Shown: positions 10,373-62,863 of the stretch, one piece after another
Layout: each line of letters opens with the position of its first letter
Position numbering within the stretch: the first letter of the stretch is position 1
Source of the DNA: Pseudoxanthomonas suwonensis 11-1
GTDB lineage: Bacteria > Pseudomonadota > Gammaproteobacteria > Xanthomonadales > Xanthomonadaceae
Reading direction: 5' to 3'
DNA length: 64,000 bases
NCBI RefSeq assembly: GCF_000185965.1
Contig: NC_014924.1
Span: forward strand, 2,914,001-2,978,000
The notes under the pieces: generated by a model
Seen by the model: only the letters and a program-made list of their open reading frames with translations
What the model was told of the DNA's origin: nothing
Database searches by the model: none
Program-made: the position numbers and the translations under genes

Positions 10373-10618
10373 ATGACCGATACGCCCCCCGACCGCCTCG
10401 CCCTGGATCCGCGCAGCCCCTTCTACGACGCCGCCATGCTCGACCGTGGCGTGGGCGTGCGCTTCAACGGCCAGGAACGCGACAACGTCGAGGAGTACTC
10501 GGTCAGCGAGGGCTGGATCCGGGTCCAGGTCGGCCGCTCGCGCGACCGCCGCGGCAACCCGATGACGATCAAGGTCAAGGGGACGGTCGAGCCCTACTTC
10601 CTCGTCGCGAAGGAATAA
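10373..10618 (+). CDS. DUF3297 family protein
   Basis: 81-aa soluble protein whose whole length matches DUF3297. The segments LDPRSPFYDAAMLDRGVGVR and VKGTVEPYF are characteristic. Function is unknown. It begins 118 bp from the divergent yaeQ start, so the two share a promoter region, and it converges with the gene ending at 10686. Confidence 0.88.
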   Translation: MTDTPPDRLALDPRSPFYDAAMLDRGVGVRFNGQERDNVEEYSVSEGWIRVQVGRSRDRRGNPMTIKVKGTVEPYFLVAKE

Positions 10619-10685
10619 GCGGGCTTCCCGCCGCCCACGCGGCGGGCTGGGCCGCCGGCCCCGGCTTCTCCCGACCGCGAAGGTC

Positions 10686-11633
10686 CTAACCGCGGCAGTC
10701 CTGCAGCTTCTGCCGCGCGTACCACAGCGCGCGACGCGCCTGGTTCCAGGCCGTGTCGGCGGTGGACGGCAGCTGGTGCTTCGCGCGCACCGGGTCCGCT
10801 CCCTTGGCCAGGGCGTGCTCCACCGCCTGCAGCTGCGCCAGCGCCTCGCGCACCGGTTCCATCAACTTCTCCAGCCGCTCGCGCGGGCAGCGGCCGTGCC
10901 CGCGTTCCAGCTCGGCCACCTGCCCGCGCAGGGCGCGGCTGGCGCTGCCATCCAACCCGGGTGCCGGCTCGTCGCTGACCGGCGCCGCCTTCCAGGCATC
11001 GCCGGTAGCCTCGCTGCCCAGGTCCGAGGGACGTTCGTGGCGGGCCGGGTTGAACGCCACCTGCGGCGGCGGCCGCGCCTCGGCGTGCTGGATGTCCTTG
11101 CCCATCAGGAACTCGGCGACCTTCTTCTGGCCGCGGGCGATCGACTGCGCCGCCACGTCGCCGACGCTGCCGTCGCTGATCCAGTCGCCTTCGAAGCGGG
11201 TCCCGCGGTAGTCCACCGGGTTGTGCGGATCCAGCGCCCGCTCGCCCTTGCCAGGCACCGGCGTGGTCGCGACCACGCCGTCGGGCACCAGCACCCGCCC
11301 CTCGGCGTCGTACAGCAACGGACCGCGTGCGGCAGGCACCGCGGGCGTGGTCGCCGGACCAGGGCCGACGGGGCTTGCCGCTGGCGTCAGCGATCCGCGC
11401 GATGCGGGAGCCTGCGCGACCTCCCGGTCGGCCGGGACCGTCGGCAACCGCGGGACCACGGCCTGGCCCGGCCGCAGCGTGAACCTCACCTCCAGCCGCC
11501 CATCCTCCGTGGCGGGTTCCGGATCCGTGGCCGGGGCACGCAGCAGCAGGACCGCGAACAGCAGCAGCACCGCCACGGTCAGCAGCGCGGATACGGCGTG
11601 GGCCAGGAACTGCCTGTCGAGGGGATGGCGCAA
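10686..11633 (-). CDS. Hypothetical single-pass membrane protein
   Basis: 315-aa protein with one N-terminal transmembrane helix (ALLTVAVLLLFAVLLL). A Pro/Ala-rich, probably periplasmic linker follows, then a charged C-terminal region with predicted helices (VREALAQLQAVEHALAKG). The two C-terminal-half cysteines could form a disulfide. No family recognised. It is divergent from the PAS kinase at 11797. Confidence 0.6.
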   Translation of the reverse strand: MRHPLDRQFLAHAVSALLTVAVLLLFAVLLLRAPATDPEPATEDGRLEVRFTLRPGQAVVPRLPTVPADREVAQAPASRGSLTPAASPVGPGPATTPAVPAARGPLLYDAEGRVLVPDGVVATTPVPGKGERALDPHNPVDYRGTRFEGDWISDGSVGDVAAQSIARGQKKVAEFLMGKDIQHAEARPPPQVAFNPARHERPSDLGSEATGDAWKAAPVSDEPAPGLDGSASRALRGQVAELERGHGRCPRERLEKLMEPVREALAQLQAVEHALAKGADPVRAKHQLPSTADTAWNQARRALWYARQKLQDCRG

Positions 11634-54669: not shown

Positions 54670-55322
54670 ATCACTCCCATTGCCGCGCGTGGGGACGCGA
54701 CGTGACGTTGTTCTTGTGGACCGGGGAGTTTAACGCACGGGTGCCACGCGACGCTTCGCTACGGAGGCGTATGTAGCAGGACGCTGAGTCCCCGGATGTT
54801 GCGCTGCGACAAGGGTTTGCGGAGGTTTGGAGGTGCGCGGCAGGTCGGGCTTTCGGCTTCGGATGGGTGGCGATATTGGTATCCGTGGCAACCAATCCGG
54901 TGCGTGGTTGGAGGGCGCTGCGACCAGTGCAAACGGCGAGCCTGCGGAAAGCGAGGCATATCAAGCCTCGGGCGGCGCAAGTCCGAGCCTATCCGGCGCT
55001 GTCGTGCCTGCCTTGGGACGGGATCCGCCGCCCTCCACACGCCACGAGCCCGGGGGCGGGAGCACCTGACAAACCCGCAAAGCGGATCGGAGGGAGGCCC
55101 GGAGACCGGGCAGGTATGCACAAACGCATGAATACGTATGCCATCCGGTCCTGAACGATTCGGGCCGGATCACCCCCGCATCGCAACGCTGAAACGCGGT
55201 TCAGCTGCGCCGGGAAAACACACGCGTCCTTAGCAAACCCCGCCATACGATCCAGTCTGGTCCTACCCCCGGGACCTCCGCGGCGCCCTCCCCCAGGCCC
55301 GCGGGTCTGGAGAGAAGCAGTG
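54670..55322. other. Intergenic between aceE and the STAS gene
   Basis: About 650 bp holding the divergent promoters of aceE and the STAS gene. Small frames here (60-120 codons on both strands) have irregular composition and no matching ribosome-binding sites. An imperfect inverted repeat GGTCCTGAACGATTCGGGCC occurs near 55147. No gene called. Confidence 0.5.
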
Positions 55323-55724
55323 ATGAGCCAGCTCAGGATCGACCCCACGCCCCCGCAGAACGGAGTCCAGCGCATTGCCGTTAGCGGCCGCCTGGATACC
55401 GGCAGCCACTCCGAACTGGACCACGCCATCGACCCGCTGCTTGCCGACGAGCGCGTGTCCTCCGTGGTGCTGGACCTGGAAGGCCTCAACTACATCAGCA
55501 GCGCCGGCCTGCGCTCGCTGTCGCGCGTCCGCCGCGCCCTCGCCCGCCGCCACCGCAGCGTGCTGCTGATCAACCCGCAGCCGCAGATCCAGAAGGTCTT
55601 CGACGTCGTCGACGCCGTTCCCCTCAAGGACGTCTTCGCCTCGGTGGAAGAAGCGGACCAGTACCTGGATGCGATGCAGCGGAAGCTGGTGGCGAAGGTG
55701 GCCGCCGCTCAGGTACAGGCGTAG
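55323..55724 (+). CDS. STAS-domain anti-sigma factor antagonist
   Basis: 133-aa single STAS domain related to SpoIIAA/RsbV. The phosphorylatable serine region is GLNYISSAGLRSLSRVRRAL near residues 58-77. It would bind an anti-sigma kinase or a related partner, but no such gene is adjacent. GGAGAGAAG precedes the ATG at 55323, and a GTG one codon upstream is possible. A broken copy of its 3' half lies at 56764. Confidence 0.88.
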   Translation: MSQLRIDPTPPQNGVQRIAVSGRLDTGSHSELDHAIDPLLADERVSSVVLDLEGLNYISSAGLRSLSRVRRALARRHRSVLLINPQPQIQKVFDVVDAVPLKDVFASVEEADQYLDAMQRKLVAKVAAAQVQA

Positions 55725-55864: not shown

Positions 55865-56380
55865 TCAAGTCACGCCGGTCCTGAATATCGACCTGCGGAC
55901 CAGTTCAACAGTCGTGCCTATCTGTCCGACGACCGCGGCAACCGAAGCCAGGACCACGACGATGTCAGCGATGTTGATGACCCTCACCCGCTTGGTTTCC
56001 AGGTCCACCATGGCCAGGTAATCAGTCACACCTCCAAGCGCGACATACTCGGCTGCATTCAGTAGTGCAATGGCGACCAACGCGGCTGATGCCAGGAATC
56101 CCAGGCGCACCATCCAGTGATGACCAAGTCCGGGCTGCGCTCGGCCTACCCAGAAGAAAAACGAACAGAAGATCGAAGCAATCAACAGGGCGATCAGTAG
56201 CCAGGCGATAGCGCTCCACCCGAACAGCATCACCCTCGTTTCGTTGATCGTGTGCGTCAAGTACAGCGGCCCCGCCAAGTGGATAGTGCTGTCGACCTCG
56301 AGGCCTAGCCGGGCCCACGCGCGAATGGCGATCTCGAGAGCAACAAACGAGCCGACAACAAGCAAAGCTGTCCTAGCCAT
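55865..56380 (-). CDS. Signal peptidase II (LspA)-like membrane protein
   Basis: 171-aa protein with four membrane helices and an LspA-like pattern. GPLYLTHTINETRVMLFG corresponds to the FFNLTYVxNTGAAFG block, GGVTDYL to GNLIDRL, and VINIADIVVVL to FNVADxxI. Both catalytic aspartates appear retained, but the first-helix DQLTK motif is ALEIAIR. It may be a divergent lipoprotein or prepeptide-cleaving protease. GGAGG precedes the ATG at 56380. It lies last on the minus strand of the peptide island. Confidence 0.6.
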   Translation of the reverse strand: MARTALLVVGSFVALEIAIRAWARLGLEVDSTIHLAGPLYLTHTINETRVMLFGWSAIAWLLIALLIASIFCSFFFWVGRAQPGLGHHWMVRLGFLASAALVAIALLNAAEYVALGGVTDYLAMVDLETKRVRVINIADIVVVLASVAAVVGQIGTTVELVRRSIFRTGVT

Positions 56381-56427
56381 ACGTCCTCCGTAAGGCACGC
56401 TGGCGAAGCCACCGTGCCCCTAGCGCG

Positions 56428-56640
56428 TCACCTTACCCTTGCTGTGACCTCGACTTTGACGCCCTTGTCGGTCACCTCGGCGGAACCAGAGCAACCCTTC
56501 GAGACTCCATAGGCGCCACGGTGCCGATGGCAGCAACTACCACGACCGCGACCACGACGGCTCCGACGACTAGCGGTGCAACACCACGCCGCACCGGACG
56601 AGCACCCTCAGCAACGGGTGATGGGAAAGCTGCTCCCGGA
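56428..56640 (-). pseudogene. Broken small hydrophobic-peptide gene
   Basis: One frame encodes GARPVRRGVAPLVVGAVVVA and further V/A residues, a single membrane helix. A different frame just downstream continues with GAYGVSKGCSGSAEVTDKG and VKVEVTARVR before a TGA. The two halves look like one small protein split by a frameshift. No start codon or double-glycine leader is found upstream; that place is taken by the metalloprotease fragment. Confidence 0.4.
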
Positions 56641-56683
56641 AACTACGGCGAGACTCCGCTCGCCGGACGGCCACCGTCCCTGC

Positions 56684-56746
56684 TGCACGGCTCCACGCGA
56701 CTGGATCGATTGCGACATAGGCAGCGGGTGGCGGCATGTCATCCAT
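56684..56746 (-). pseudogene. N-terminal fragment of the HExxH protein gene
   Basis: Starts ATG and reads DDMPPPAAYVAIDPVAWSR, clearly related to the first 20 residues of the protein at 58745 (DGLPPPVAQVAIDSAAWTQ). After that the similarity stops and the frame runs into the broken peptide gene. It is a remnant of a second gene copy. Confidence 0.6.
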
Positions 56747-56763
56747 ACGTACTCGATTCAGGA

Positions 56764-56946
56764 GGGTTCGCTCGCCCGCCGCCACCGCAGCCTCTTCTGG
56801 TCAAACCGCAGCCGCGGATCCAGAAGGTCTTCGACGTCGACGACACCGCCTCCCTCAAAGACATCTTCGCCTCGGTGGAATAGGCAGACCAGCGCTTGGA
56901 CGCAACGCAGCAAAAGCTTGTGGCGGAGGCTGCCAAGGCCTCATAG
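56764..56946 (+). pseudogene. Partial, broken copy of the STAS gene
   Basis: About 183 bp closely similar to the last 190 bp of the STAS gene at 55323. QPRIQKVFDVDDTASLKDIF matches QPQIQKVFDVVDAVPLKDVF. A TAG interrupts the frame after FASVE and the tail ADQRLDATQQKLVAEAAKAS continues in frame. The 5' half is missing. Confidence 0.8.
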
Positions 56947-56982
56947 CGACAGGAAGTTTTGTGCGGCCGCGCCGCCTGAACG

Positions 56983-57591
56983 CTACAAGAAAAGCCCGTA
57001 CCCCTTAGTTCCATACCAGAGCAAGACCAAGAGATTCACGATCCCGTGGACCAATGCTCGCTGCAACGTGCTTACGCGCCATTTCAGTGCAAGCATGCAT
57101 AGGGCCAGCGAGAAGACCACTGGCCAGAACAGTGGGCCGGCATGGACAAAGCCAAATACAAGCGACACGAGAACGGCTGCAGTTAGGCCGTTCGTGAGCC
57201 GCGATAGCCCATCAAGCAAAAGTCCTCGCACGACCTTCTCCTCGTAGATCGGCGCGGTGACCACGGCACCGACCAAGGTCACCGCCACCGCCGTGATAGA
57301 GAGCTGAGAGACATCGAGGAACTTCGTTCTACCCCAAGCGACTGCAGCCACCCAGAAGGCGGCTAGGCCGATCGCTGCAACCACGAGCCAGATCACGAGG
57401 CTAATCGACCACCTACGAGATTCCTTCTCTGGATAGAGCCAGAGCAAGACCAGCGCGAGTGTGCCCTCGCACACAGGCTTTCCCCAGGCGAGCTCAATCG
57501 CCTCAGACAGCCACAACCCAAGCCCACCTATTAAGGTGACCAAGAAGCCAGAAGCAACTAGCTTCCAACTGTGAATATCTGGCCCCGCCAT
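56983..57591 (-). CDS. CPBP family intramembrane metalloprotease
   Basis: 202-aa protein with about six membrane helices and the Abi/CPBP motifs: EEKVVR (EExxxR) at residues 117-122, FGFVH (FxxxH) at 146-150 and HGIVN at 182-186. Bacterial members include proteases for prenylated or bacteriocin-linked substrates and some immunity proteins. The start MAGPDIHSW at 57591 follows GGTGACCGA; the longer frame to 57885 overlaps a different coding frame. GC is lower than in the core genes. Confidence 0.85.
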   Translation of the reverse strand: MAGPDIHSWKLVASGFLVTLIGGLGLWLSEAIELAWGKPVCEGTLALVLLWLYPEKESRRWSISLVIWLVVAAIGLAAFWVAAVAWGRTKFLDVSQLSITAVAVTLVGAVVTAPIYEEKVVRGLLLDGLSRLTNGLTAAVLVSLVFGFVHAGPLFWPVVFSLALCMLALKWRVSTLQRALVHGIVNLLVLLWYGTKGYGLFL

Positions 57592-57604
57592 TCGGTCACC
57601 ATGA

Positions 57605-57629
57605 GGGAAGGGGCACGAAGCCCCTTCCC
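57605..57629 (-). terminator. Hairpin upstream of the CPBP gene
   Basis: Ten-bp stem GGGAAGGGGC/GCCCCTTCCC with loop ACGAA, 14 bp before the CPBP start on the minus strand. There is no T-tract, so it may attenuate rather than end transcription. Confidence 0.45.
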
Positions 57630-57637
57630 CGCAAAAC

Positions 57638-57862
57638 TCACCTTTCGGAATTCTTGATGTAGCGCTCAATAATGCCGGGAACAGTAAACGGACTCGCCGC
57701 CAATGCCCTGTAGGTGATCGACGCGAGGTCGCTCCAGCTTGATCCCGCTCCGTTGCAAGTAATGTAGCTTTCCTTCGTGCCAATCTTGAAGGTTGCGCCT
57801 GCGCCGACGACGCCGACGCGTATTTCGATGCGATGCAGAGAAGGGTTGTTGAAAAGAGAAGC
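57638..57862 (-). pseudogene. Small peptide gene lacking a start codon
   Basis: Open for 74 codons and protein-like: RVGVVGAGATFKIGTKESY, ITCNGAGSSWSDLASITYRA and FTVPGIIERYIKNSER before TGA. No ATG, GTG or TTG lies in frame between the preceding stop (57863) and this region. It therefore looks like the body of a small exported peptide that has lost its leader. It lies between the HExxH gene and the CPBP gene. Confidence 0.4.
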
Positions 57863-57935
57863 TCAATACAAGGGGCGAGCCGCATAGCGGTTGATTTGAC
57901 GTGCCTCCAGCAACGCAGAAAACCTGTCGAGGGGA

Positions 57936-58745
57936 TTAGTGACCGACCGGAGCGGGAAGCTCCAGGTTCAGCACGGTTAGGGTCGGCGACTCGTCGAGTT
58001 GGAGACCACAGCCGTACGCTTCCGAGAACATCGCAAGCATCGACTCACCACGCACCGCCCGCTCCTGCCACGCGTTCCGGCCAAGCCTCGACTCGAGCAT
58101 CTCGGCAACTTTCACCCCCGAAGTAAACAATCGATAGCCGACATCGTCGGCAAAGAGCCGGGAACGAAATGATTCGTACTCGGCCAACGAACCTTTGAAC
58201 GCCGTGGTGTAGGCATAGAACTCTGCCGGCCATTCCCAAAAGGCTTTGTAGGTGAAGTAGGTCCGCGCTCCACCTTCCATCGATCCGATCGCAGCAGCGA
58301 GTTCGTCACATGCGGGAGAAGTATTTCCCCCAGTTGCACTGCGATGCATCTCGTCCACCGCGTCATAGACCCGCGACAAGCGCTCATCCATCGAGTACGC
58401 CTTGACCACGCGCTCGTCAATTTCGGTATATGAGAATGGAATCCGCGATCCGTAGTACTGCGCGGCAAGATGGAATGATTCATGCGCAGCGAGGAAGTCC
58501 AAGGCTTCCTCACCACCTGTGATCCCAGGCTCCAGGCCCAGAACCACGACCAGGTGATCGTCAGCTTGCCCCATACGAAACTCGTGGCGATCTCGCGACA
58601 CACGGAGTAGCGAAGTACGGGAATCACTCGCGCCGACGTACACCAGTACGAAAGCGTCCTTCGAAGGCCAACGAATTCGGTCCGTCTGGGTCCAGGCGGC
58701 GGAATCGATCGCGACTTGTGCTACTGGTGGTGGCAACCCATCCAT
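57936..58745 (-). CDS. Putative HExxH metalloprotease
   Basis: 269-aa protein with no signal peptide or membrane helix. It has a zinc-binding HExxH motif (FLAAHESFHLAAQ, H88 and H92) and, about 80 residues on, WEWPAEFYAYT, where E175 could be the third ligand as in gluzincins. The rest is unfamiliar. CGGAGA is 7 nt before the ATG at 58745; an in-frame ATG at 58769 has no such site. It lies 60 bp after the 92-aa leader-peptide gene and probably shares its transcript. It may process or degrade peptides made by the island (inference). Confidence 0.65.
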   Translation of the reverse strand: MDGLPPPVAQVAIDSAAWTQTDRIRWPSKDAFVLVYVGASDSRTSLLRVSRDRHEFRMGQADDHLVVVLGLEPGITGGEEALDFLAAHESFHLAAQYYGSRIPFSYTEIDERVVKAYSMDERLSRVYDAVDEMHRSATGGNTSPACDELAAAIGSMEGGARTYFTYKAFWEWPAEFYAYTTAFKGSLAEYESFRSRLFADDVGYRLFTSGVKVAEMLESRLGRNAWQERAVRGESMLAMFSEAYGCGLQLDESPTLTVLNLELPAPVGH

Positions 58746-58774
58746 CTTGCAGTCTCCGGATGCGCACATGGAAC

Positions 58775-58799
58775 GGGCGCGCAGGACTCCTGCGCGCCC
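58775..58799 (-). other. Hairpin between leader-peptide gene and HExxH gene
   Basis: Eleven-bp perfect stem GGGCGCGCAGG/CCTGCGCGCCC with a 3-nt loop, 6 bp after the stop of the 92-aa gene. There is no T-tract on the minus strand. It could protect the peptide mRNA or reduce read-through into the protease gene. Confidence 0.6.
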
Positions 58800-58805
58800 C
58801 TTTCG

Positions 58806-59084
58806 TCAGTTCCTTGCCCGCTCTTCTGCCGCGCGAAGATCGCCACAGGTCGTCTCAACCGTGGCCCCCTGGGTGGTGGTAGCGTCGCCACCGATTCCGC
58901 CCACCCTGCCGCCGACAGTGGCGGTGGCACCGTAGCTGATGGTCACCTTTGTGCTATCGGGAAGTCCACGGCAGTTCTGGAGGGCCGCTTGGCGGGCGGA
59001 CGAGCCAGACTGGTTGGAGGTGCCGCTGCTGCGATTGTTTCCGCCAGCAACGGAGTGGATCTCCTGGACTTTCAAGCTGCGCAT
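58806..59084 (-). CDS. Double-glycine leader peptide, 92 aa
   Basis: 92-aa peptide. The first 15 residues, MRSLKVQEIHSVAGG, match the double-glycine leaders of class II bacteriocins and similar peptides: a basic start, the L-x-x-x-E-I pattern and GG before the cleavage point. The predicted mature part is Ser/Gly/Thr-rich with two cysteines (LQNCRGLP and ETTCGDLR) and GATATVGGRVGGIGG in the centre. AAGGAGG lies 5 nt before the ATG. The HExxH gene follows. Confidence 0.7.
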   Translation of the reverse strand: MRSLKVQEIHSVAGGNNRSSGTSNQSGSSARQAALQNCRGLPDSTKVTISYGATATVGGRVGGIGGDATTTQGATVETTCGDLRAAEERARN

Positions 59085-59229
59085 AAATCCTCCTTGATGT
59101 GCGCGGGGACGGCCTATTCCGCCCCCGGAGGCAATTTATCCACCGAACAAGTGCGGTCAATCCCGGAAATCCCGATCTTCCTGTCAGGCTTTTCCGAGTT
59201 CCGCTATACCAGTCCAGTTACCCCGCCCC

Positions 59230-59340
59230 CTCTTCCAGCTGCTGGCGGAGCTGGGCTCGACCGCCACGACGGCGCCACTTCGCGGGCCATTCCCAGAGAA
59301 CCTTGCGGGTAGAGCAAGCTCGGGTGGCGTCACCCAAGCC
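59230..59340 (-). pseudogene. Central fragment of an HExxH-type gene
   Basis: The frame TRACSTRKVLWEWPAKW aligns with ARTYFTYKAFWEWPAEF of the protein at 58745, sharing R, T, K and the rare WEWPA block. The neighbouring parts and the HExxH motif are gone, and the putative ligand Glu is Lys. The rest of 59085-59555 shows no intact gene. Confidence 0.45.
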
Positions 59341-59555
59341 ACTGGAACGCTCCTCAAACGGCGCACTTACCCCCAACCTGCGCGGCACGCTCCCCGGCAT
59401 CCACCTCGTGATTGTGTCGTGGCACGCGGCGAAGCCAGGTCCCGCTAGGCGGCGCTGGACTGCCTCCGGCCAACTTCCGCACGCCTGACGTAGTCAGACG
59501 CTCATCTGGCCGGATGCCTTCCACGAAGTGCCGATGTGCATAAGCTGACGGGACG

Positions 59556-59693
59556 CTACTCGCACTCCTGCGAGAGCTGCGCGTCGGTCTCTGCGGCGAT
59601 CTGTGCGATATGCACGATGCTCGCCCTGTGATGCCACGCGTACAGGAATCCTCCAAGAACCATCAGGATCGCCAGATAGCCGCTGCGCTTCAT
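59556..59693 (-). CDS. 45-aa single-helix membrane peptide
   Basis: Short gene with AAAGGAGCAGACC before its ATG. The product is MKRSGYLAILMVLGGFLYAW, then HHRASIVHIAQIAAETDA and QLSQECE: one N-terminal membrane helix and a polar tail. The tail aligns with the end of the 56-aa peptide encoded at 60131 (RASLLAIGQAAKEEDERLSS then ECED). It has no double-glycine leader. It could be a partner or immunity peptide. Confidence 0.6.
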   Translation of the reverse strand: MKRSGYLAILMVLGGFLYAWHHRASIVHIAQIAAETDAQLSQECE

Positions 59694-59713
59694 GGTCTGC
59701 TCCTTTGGGAGAT

Positions 59714-59738
59714 GGTCCGGCCCGGGGAGGGCCGGACC
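59714..59738 (-). other. Hairpin between 70-aa and 45-aa peptide genes
   Basis: Ten-bp stem GGTCCGGCCC/GGGCCGGACC with a 5-nt loop, in the 51-bp gap after the 70-aa gene. No T-tract follows on the minus strand. Confidence 0.6.
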
Positions 59739-59744
59739 GGTTCA

Positions 59745-59957
59745 TCAATGCTGACTCACGTAGTGCCAGATCGCGCCCATGACCAGTCCTGTCGGGCTGA
59801 TCGCCCCCAGCACCCTGGCCGGCGTTGAGTTCAGGGAGTGCCACGCCTTTCCGACCGCCTTGCCGATCGCTCGATCAGCGTCTGCGTTGGTCGGCGCCTC
59901 CGCGCCCCCGCTGCCGCCCGTGACGTATGCGGATTCCGAAGTAGAGAGCGTACGCAT
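59745..59957 (-). CDS. Double-glycine leader peptide, 70 aa
   Basis: 70-aa peptide whose leader MRTLSTSESAYVTGG ends in GG. The mature part starts SGGAEAPTNADADRAIG. It then forms an amphipathic or hydrophobic helix region (KAVGKAWHSLN, ARVLGAISPTGLVMGAIWHY), resembling class II bacteriocins. There are no cysteines. Its ATG is 3 bp after the stop of the 56-aa gene, so they are co-translated. It is the second gene in the island. Confidence 0.68.
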   Translation of the reverse strand: MRTLSTSESAYVTGGSGGAEAPTNADADRAIGKAVGKAWHSLNSTPARVLGAISPTGLVMGAIWHYVSQH

Positions 59958-59960
59958 GGC

Positions 59961-60131
59961 TCAGTCCTCGCACTCGCTGGAAAGGCGTTCATCCTCCTCC
60001 TTGGCCGCCTGACCGATTGCCAGCAGGGATGCCCGGTTGGCATGCGCCCATGCGATGGCTGCACCGAGGGCGAGGACGATGCGGACACCGCCTCCGACAT
60101 GTTCCAGTTCAACGCTACTCAAAGTTCTCAT
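59961..60131 (-). CDS. Double-glycine leader peptide, 56 aa
   Basis: 56-aa peptide with leader MRTLSSVELEHVGGG, a good double-glycine type. The mature part is one hydrophobic helix (VRIVLALGAAIAWAH) and an acidic tail with a single cysteine (KEEDERLSSECED). AAGGAGGAAG lies 7 nt before the ATG. It is the first gene of the minus-strand island; the 70-aa peptide gene follows 3 bp after its stop. Confidence 0.68.
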   Translation of the reverse strand: MRTLSSVELEHVGGGVRIVLALGAAIAWAHANRASLLAIGQAAKEEDERLSSECED

Positions 60132-60234
60132 GGCACTTCCTCCTTGAAGTGGCTGGTTGATGAGAATGCGCCTTGGCGCGCCCTGAGCATGCTTCTGCCA
60201 CTGGCAGATTCAATCAGAGGAATCCAATCCCGGA

Positions 60235-60252
60235 TGTAGGATTTTTACTACA
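60235..60252. promoter_or_regulatory. Candidate operator upstream of peptide genes
   Basis: Inverted repeat TGTAG-N8-CTACA in an AT-rich stretch (GATTTTTA), about 105 bp upstream of the first leader-peptide start. It is the only AT-rich palindrome in this intergenic region, so it could be a regulator site or part of the promoter. No direct evidence. Confidence 0.3.
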
Positions 60253-60324
60253 CGAGCGGCGAAGGCTTGGGCAACTACGGGTCCAGCCCGGACGGATATG
60301 CCGCCATGCCCGTTAAGCCCAAAT

Positions 60325-60353
60325 AAAAAGGGCAGGAGCTCCCGCTCCTGCCC
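60325..60353 (-). terminator. Intrinsic terminator of maeB
   Basis: Ten-bp stem GGGCAGGAGC/GCTCCTGCCC with a 4-nt loop. On the minus strand it is followed by TTTTTATTT. It lies 35 bp after the maeB stop. Confidence 0.9.
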
Positions 60354-60387
60354 GTGTCCATTCAACCGGTCAGCTTGAAGGGTTGCC

Positions 60388-62682
<2,295 letters not shown>

Positions 62683-62863
62683 CGATCGGGTTCGGCGCGA
62701 GCGCAAGGGGCCTCGATTCTAAGCGTTCCGGTGCTCCGGCGGCCCCTTGCGCGCCGCGCGGTGCAGGCGCCGTTGCGACTTCGGACTTACGGTGCAGTGC
62801 AACAAAACGCGGCCTGGCCGGCTGAAAACCCATGACAGCGCTCGTCACGCACGATGCGGCGGA

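Follow-up and report, generated by a model that had tools for sequence, protein, structure and literature searches.

What do the short genes with double-glycine (GG) leaders that lie between the core genes aceE and maeB of Pseudoxanthomonas suwonensis 11-1 encode, and why are they interspersed with genes for proteins that carry protease motifs? The genes belong to a 64,000-nucleotide stretch (hereafter, the window), which corresponds to positions 2914001-2978000 of a single-contig genome of 3,419,049 bases; coordinates given alone below are those of the window. An earlier note, made from the sequence alone, had proposed that three GG-leader genes, an HExxH protein, a CPBP intramembrane protease and an LspA-like protein form a single secreted-peptide system that relies on an exporter encoded elsewhere. 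The peptides and their neighbours are indeed linked in other genomes, but as several peptide-partner modules rather than as one system. We consider it fairly probable that the interval between maeB and the STAS-domain gene next to aceE is a hotspot of class-II-microcin-like peptide modules with cognate proteolytic partners and with export in trans.

The modules occupy a block of lower GC content (56-64% in 56000-60500, versus 64-75% in the flanks), as the earlier note had described, with maeB (60388-62706, minus strand) at one border. A strict search that required the GG-leader pattern, an ATG start and a ribosome-binding site (RBS) match of at least four bases returned three genes in the 64-kb window, all of them in the island, versus 0.075 expected from the control, Markov-shuffled windows. 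These are the three genes of the earlier note, which we call pepA, pepB and pepD; all are intact, lie on the minus strand and have an RBS. On the same strand, the block contains two decayed GG-peptide genes, pepE and pepH, and a leaderless relative of pepA, pepC. These three, as well as two HExxH gene remnants and one STAS gene remnant, had been overlooked. The earlier note had made its proposal depend on conservation of the small genes in relatives. When the island genes were compared with those of P. suwonensis DSM 17175, conservation was seen, with differences in excess at third codon positions in all genes and a pN/pS of the peptides of 0.39-0.63 (pS being near saturation). Because of this pattern, we regard the island genes as protein-coding and moderately constrained.

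The pepD gene (58806..59084, minus strand) codes for a 92-amino acid GG-leader peptide, MRSLKVQEIHSVAGG, of a two-cysteine family with the pattern C38...LPDST...TTCGxLR. Residues G14, G15, C38, P42, C80, G81 and R84 are invariant in alignments of the family, and the two cysteines (C38 and C80 in the window copy) are likely to form a disulfide. No Pfam family was matched by pepD, and its predicted-structure model was poor (pLDDT 56.6) and supports no fold claim. The HExxH gene (57936..58745, minus strand; 269 amino acids from the likely start at 58745, with a longer open reading frame, ORF, from 58769) is the partner of pepD: in all eight loci where both genes are present, pepD comes first and HExxH follows, with a gap that falls, as in the other modules, within 28-103 nucleotides. 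Four of these loci are at maeB (the window, P. suwonensis DSM 17175, P. koreensis and P. suwonensis J47), while the other four are inside C39/HlyD exporter loci (J47 again, P. jiangsuensis, Lysobacteraceae NML95-0200 and betaproteobacterium AAP99). Among 297 genomes of the family, ten have HExxH, seven have pepD and six have both (Fisher p 1.6e-9, or 0.005 within the genus; the genomes are related and do not count as independent). One genome, G124, has an orphan HExxH gene without pepD. A profile scan of genome contigs for HExxH recovered eight loci, where an earlier scan with a single sequence had recovered none; no relatives were found on plasmid records. Since a class-wide sample of 369 genomes contained no HExxH gene and no convincing pepD outside the source genome itself, we conclude that both families are rare.

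Several further features of this pair were noticed. Between pepD and the HExxH gene there is an inverted repeat rich in GC (58766-58800), and a similar one is present in DSM 17175 (L010); such a repeat perhaps sets a high ratio of peptide to partner. In a genome without HExxH (G012, L042:9587-9880), a pepD-family peptide lacks a normal GG leader, as if it were decaying after loss of its partner. In genome G200 (L040:5163-5462), a glycine-zipper GG peptide and C39/HlyD genes are found together with an HExxH gene that has a lipobox and is read from the opposite strand, which is the only case of HExxH accompanying another peptide family.

The HExxH protein of the window carries the motif AAHESFHLAAQ, and it shares with nine relatives HExFHxxxQ, EWPAxxY, one cysteine and scattered Trp, Gly and Arg residues; HExFH, EWPAxxY and E171, a candidate for the third, acidic zinc ligand, are invariant. 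No Pfam or NCBIfam family was matched, and peptidase families, M1 and M61 included, were absent even at E<=10 (Pfam) and E<=1 (NCBIfam). Searches by sequence for solved structures found none for either the pepD or the HExxH family (T-complex rows were weak and unrelated). An AlphaFold2 model of the HExxH protein was of good quality (pLDDT 89.4, pTM 0.90) and places the HExxH motif in helix 78-97. Foldseek returned nothing at E<0.001 with this model. In a second look with VIA-align, the top rows were nearly all zincins (M1, M9, M61, LTA4H and M4): M1 6koz (Z 6.1, the best score; rmsd 4.7 over 161 residues), 4fgm, Vibrio collagenase 7esi, leukotriene A4 hydrolase 3fui and M61 7xyo, though a Z below 8 may mean merely a common arrangement. 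Because the motif lies in a helix and the list consists so uniformly of zinc metallopeptidases, the HExxH protein is likely a zincin, that is, a predicted zinc metallopeptidase. As judged by eye, the N-terminus is of the Sec type or the lipoprotein type in several exporter loci.

The two other neighbours named in the earlier note are also present, but they belong to peptides that are decayed in this strain and not to the intact ones. The CPBP intramembrane protease (56983..57591, minus strand; likely start 57591) matches PF02517 with 42.9 bits (cut-off 22.4), and the motifs EExxxR, FxxxH and HxxxN can be read both in the window (EEKVVR, FGFVH, HGIVN) and in relatives. Homologs were found in 7 of 17 congeners, and pepE is located just upstream in all seven; in two of the genomes (G002 and G007), C39 and HlyD genes follow pepE-CPBP at the same maeB site. 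The window copy of pepE is a remnant (57641..57820, minus strand) with the mature part ...SYITCNGAGSSWSDLASITYRALAASPFTVPGIIERYIKNSER and no in-frame ATG leader. It is 44% identical to the intact pepE of L107 (E 9e-11), and another intact copy starts at L010:8015. With pepD-HExxH in 8/8 loci and CPBP-pepE in 7/7, the neighbours are thus linked elsewhere, which the earlier note had named as the second thing to check.

The LspA-like protein (Peptidase_A8; 55865..56380, minus strand; likely ATG at 56380 behind GGAGG) matches PF01252 with 33.3 bits (cut-off 25). GGVTDYL and N[IL][AG]D, which we take to be the two aspartate regions of Peptidase_A8, are kept in the three Pseudoxanthomonas copies. 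Against the equivalog model of housekeeping LspA it scored only 14.6 bits (cut-off 256), and by sequence it is a divergent relative of LspA. The genus has two further homologs, each of which lies next to maeB with an intact pepH upstream. In the window, pepH is a remnant (56437..56594, minus strand) of a frameshifted hydrophobic GG peptide, GVAPLVVGAVVV... / YGVSKGCSGSAEVTDKGVKVEVTAR, two frames of which match the intact L129 copy with 52-54% identity (E 8e-9 and 6e-5). We considered and rejected a role of the LspA-like protein in the processing of lipoprotein-type HExxH precursors, since its neighbour in the two congeners is pepH, and no LspA-like gene is present in G003, the genome of the genus whose HExxH is lipobox-like.

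The fourth module contains no protease-fold protein. The pepA gene (59961..60131, minus strand; RBS AAGGAGG) codes for a 56-amino acid GG-leader peptide, MRTLSSVELEHVGGG, with a hydrophobic mature part and the C-terminal end KEEDERLSSECED. It is directly followed by pepB (59745..59957, minus strand), which codes for a 70-amino acid GG-leader peptide, MRTLSTSESAYVTGG. Homologs of pepA are found in DSM 17175 (L010:7136-7309, 50% identity) and, upstream of C39-HlyD, in L104 (3808-3972); those of pepB follow in the same order (L010:7322-7528, 45% identity; L104:3985-4170). The two look like a two-peptide pair. Next comes pepC (59556..59693, minus strand), a 45-amino acid leaderless membrane peptide with 46% identity over 43 amino acids to the mature part of pepA (tblastn E 2e-7), which makes it a candidate immunity peptide of pepA/pepB. 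The gene occurs after pepA-pepB in L010 and L104, and also in L011, L101 and L129. DSM 17175 and genome G010 both keep the order pepA-pepB-pepC; in G010, C39 and then HlyD genes lie directly downstream.

The exporter that had been postulated to lie elsewhere was found. Exactly one C39 peptidase in the genome scores above the family cut-off; it is part of an ABC exporter, about 700 residues long, that is matched by bacteriocin-export ABC models. The exporter gene adjoins one of the HlyD family and is flanked by trp genes, at a distance of 0.83 Mb from the window. Its locus also contains two further pepD-family peptides and one other GG peptide. Outer-membrane efflux proteins are present in the genome. 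The RBS plus GG-leader pattern was found at 22 places genome-wide, versus 5 in a reversed control, and leaders that are convincing by eye were confined to the exporter locus and the island. A C39 domain is present in 16 of 17 Pseudoxanthomonas genomes, and in three congeners C39-HlyD is in the maeB interval, next to the same peptide families. The exporter is thus part of the maeB locus in some species; because it is absent from that interval in the window strain, the trp-linked copy would have to serve the window peptides.

Exporter loci showed some peculiarities of their own. In the source genome, the HlyD ORF (L002:10634-12133) is longer than the 414 residues that are usual and overlaps a pepD-family gene (10501-10743) at its start, as if the HlyD gene had lost its stop codon. 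At the P. jiangsuensis exporter locus, an M23-family peptidase gene (L015:10410-11285 / L050; PF01551, 71.9 bits) is inserted between a GG-peptide gene and the C39 gene, and its product is perhaps another protease partner. In genome G008 (L098:7041-8155), five tandem GG-leader genes lie beside the exporter; the mature parts differ and are mostly proline-rich.

Outside the modules, the interval has a conserved border and contains additional debris. The STAS-domain gene next to aceE (55320..55724, plus strand; PF01740, 57.3 bits) has orthologs at the same border in congeners and is outside the peptide system. In many congeners (L011, L102, L103, L106, L107, L130), an RsbW-like anti-sigma gene adjoins it; this partner is missing beside the window copy. 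Of a duplicated STAS gene, a decayed 3' end remains (56768..56940, plus strand), which contains an in-frame TAG and is 69% identical to the intact STAS protein (E 1e-17). The 5' end of another HExxH gene (56681..56746, minus strand), MDDMPPPAAYVAIDPVAWSR, has 60% identity over 20 amino acids to the N-terminus of the window HExxH protein (E 3e-4), and a possible remnant of a second HExxH gene, VLWEWPAKW (59275..59358, minus strand), gave a weak match to the HExxH protein of L010 (tblastn E 0.002). Because of the decayed pepE and pepH, the two HExxH remnants and the broken STAS duplicate, we conclude that the block is a site of repeated gain and loss. A tRNA-linked integrative island was considered and rejected, no tRNA having been found in 50-64 kb of the window.

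With the gene anatomy, the linkage of modules across genomes, an exporter, conserved catalytic motifs and a zincin-like predicted fold observed, we propose the following mechanism. Each module pairs the gene for a GG-leader peptide with a partner gene of its own, which lies downstream on the same strand: pepD/HExxH, pepE/CPBP, pepH/LspA-like and pepA-pepB/pepC. After synthesis of the precursors in the cytoplasm, the single exporter would cut them behind GG with its C39 domain and, together with HlyD and an outer-membrane channel, would secrete the mature peptide; modules of the window strain would work in trans with the exporter 0.83 Mb away. Export, cleavage, pairing at the protein level and an antibacterial role of the peptides are what we infer. 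A protease-fold partner would act on its cognate peptide, most likely as self-immunity by proteolysis, while second-step maturation of the peptide would be an alternative close to it. Catalysis should matter in either case, since the catalytic residues are invariant. Self-immunity, to which we assign about half of our confidence, as against about a third for maturation, is favoured because of the orphan HExxH gene, the presence of one partner per peptide and the frequent remnants. Proteolytic immunity has been suggested for the CPBP immunity proteins SkkI, PlnI and PlnL (PMC8538875), and CylI is a possible zinc-metalloprotease immunity protein (PMC3709268). We tentatively extend this to a general proposal, in which three unrelated protease folds (the new zincin family, CPBP and the LspA-like aspartyl protease) would each serve a different GG-peptide family as its dedicated proteolytic partner, for immunity or for maturation, the zincin and the two-cysteine peptide forming a new cassette that is also found in gamma- and betaproteobacterial C39/HlyD loci.

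Several observations weigh against immunity modules served in trans. The C39 domain of the exporter in the source genome (L002:7968-10124; G000:C1, ca. 2.144-2.146 Mb) has Ala in place of the oxyanion-hole Gln. In most others this position is Gln, with Ser in G011 and Ala in P. jiangsuensis, and the Q26A substitution in CvaB has a minimal effect (PMC3335142). That the HExxH protein replaces a crippled C39 peptidase was rejected on account of this tolerance of CvaB (PMC3335142), and because the Gln-to-Ala change does not track the presence of HExxH. In contrast to several relatives at exporter loci, no signal peptide could be recognised by eye in the HExxH proteins of the window and of DSM 17175, for which reason the site of action of the window protein may be the cytoplasm, or the protein may be degenerate. 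Constraint on the peptides is no more than moderate (pN/pS 0.39-0.63 at near-saturated pS). Since both pepE and pepH are broken in the window, CPBP and the LspA-like protein may be orphans here. Finally, the CAAX protease SilX, which is encoded at a bacteriocin locus, is needed for production and not for immunity (PMC9298176).

The requirement for SilX in production (PMC9298176) is also in line with a possible, though doubtful, explanation in which the protease-fold partners are maturation enzymes that activate the peptide by a second cut after that of C39. Invariant catalytic motifs agree with this, as do the Sec- or lipoprotein-type HExxH N-termini at exporter loci, which would place the protein in the periplasm and so on the export route, and there is a precedent in MfuP, an M61 zincin that works together with a peptidase-containing C39 ABC exporter (PMC10885120). 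However, an HExxH orphan without pepD suits immunity better, the window HExxH protein has no signal peptide, and a separate, unrelated second-cut enzyme for each peptide family would be unusual. It is unlikely that the island is merely what remains of a system disused in this strain: pepE and pepH are broken and there are HExxH and STAS remnants, but pepA, pepB, pepC, pepD, HExxH and CPBP are intact, with RBSs and an excess of third-position differences, and the exporter is intact as well.

We consider it slightly less likely still that the peptides are cell-cell signals, which the partners would process or degrade. GG-leader peptides and CAAX proteases are used in peptide signalling by SilCR/SilX (PMC9298176), but the modules showed no gene for a receptor or regulator, and the high turnover, the strain-specific sets and the hydrophobic glycine-rich members (L100, L099, L104) resemble bacteriocins. 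The pairing of pepD with HExxH is constant and secreted HExxH forms exist in exporter loci, so one could also imagine that the HExxH enzyme is the effector and pepD its inhibitor or cofactor; given that unrelated partners accompany the other GG peptides of these loci, and that nothing suggests use of the exporter by HExxH, we regard this as very improbable. Proteolytic partnership of microcin-like peptides, whether for immunity or for maturation, is the reading that we prefer.

Producer self-protection is often unclear in class II microcins, of which few, mostly from E. coli, have been validated experimentally (PMC9746304). Matched peptide-partner pairs with mutable catalytic residues make self-immunity versus peptide activation directly testable, and, if our reading is true, the LspA-like partner and the HExxH family represent new kinds of partner. 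Because such peptides can lie far from the exporter, genome mining that requires linkage will miss them.

With class II microcins such as MccV/colicin V, exported by cvaAB-type systems, the island shares the GG leader, the C39 ABC exporter with HlyD and a small, presumably secreted peptide; it differs in that the peptides match no family, the partners beside them have protease folds and the exporter is in trans. GG peptides with C39 export are already known in Xanthomonadaceae from Xanthomonas candidates (PMC13174018) and from Xylella fastidiosa, where the accessible text of PMC11885251 describes tandem GG peptides of the cvaC/cvi type, with an MREL-type leader start that can be read from the cvaC-1 primer. 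In that text, cvaC is paired with the immunity gene cvi, and no HExxH, CPBP or LspA-like partner is described. New within the literature searched are the HExxH and two-cysteine peptide families, the LspA-like partner and the hotspot with its modules. SkkI, PlnI and PlnL (PMC8538875) have in common with the island a CPBP gene linked to genes for bacteriocins of the GG-leader type, but the island CPBP protein comes from a Gram-negative host and is the constant neighbour of one peptide family, pepE. Enterococcal CylI (PMC3709268) likewise stands for possible zinc-metalloprotease self-immunity to a peptide toxin processed by its exporter; it is a membrane protein, whereas the island HExxH family looks soluble or lipid-anchored. 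MfuP of Myxococcus fulvus (PMC10885120; PDB 7xyo), which is among the structural hits, though at a Z of only 5.2, is a zincin encoded together with a C39 exporter and a peptide; the HExxH protein differs from it in having no M61 sequence-family match, and the substrate of MfuP is a lanthipeptide, while no lanthipeptide machinery was noticed at the island.

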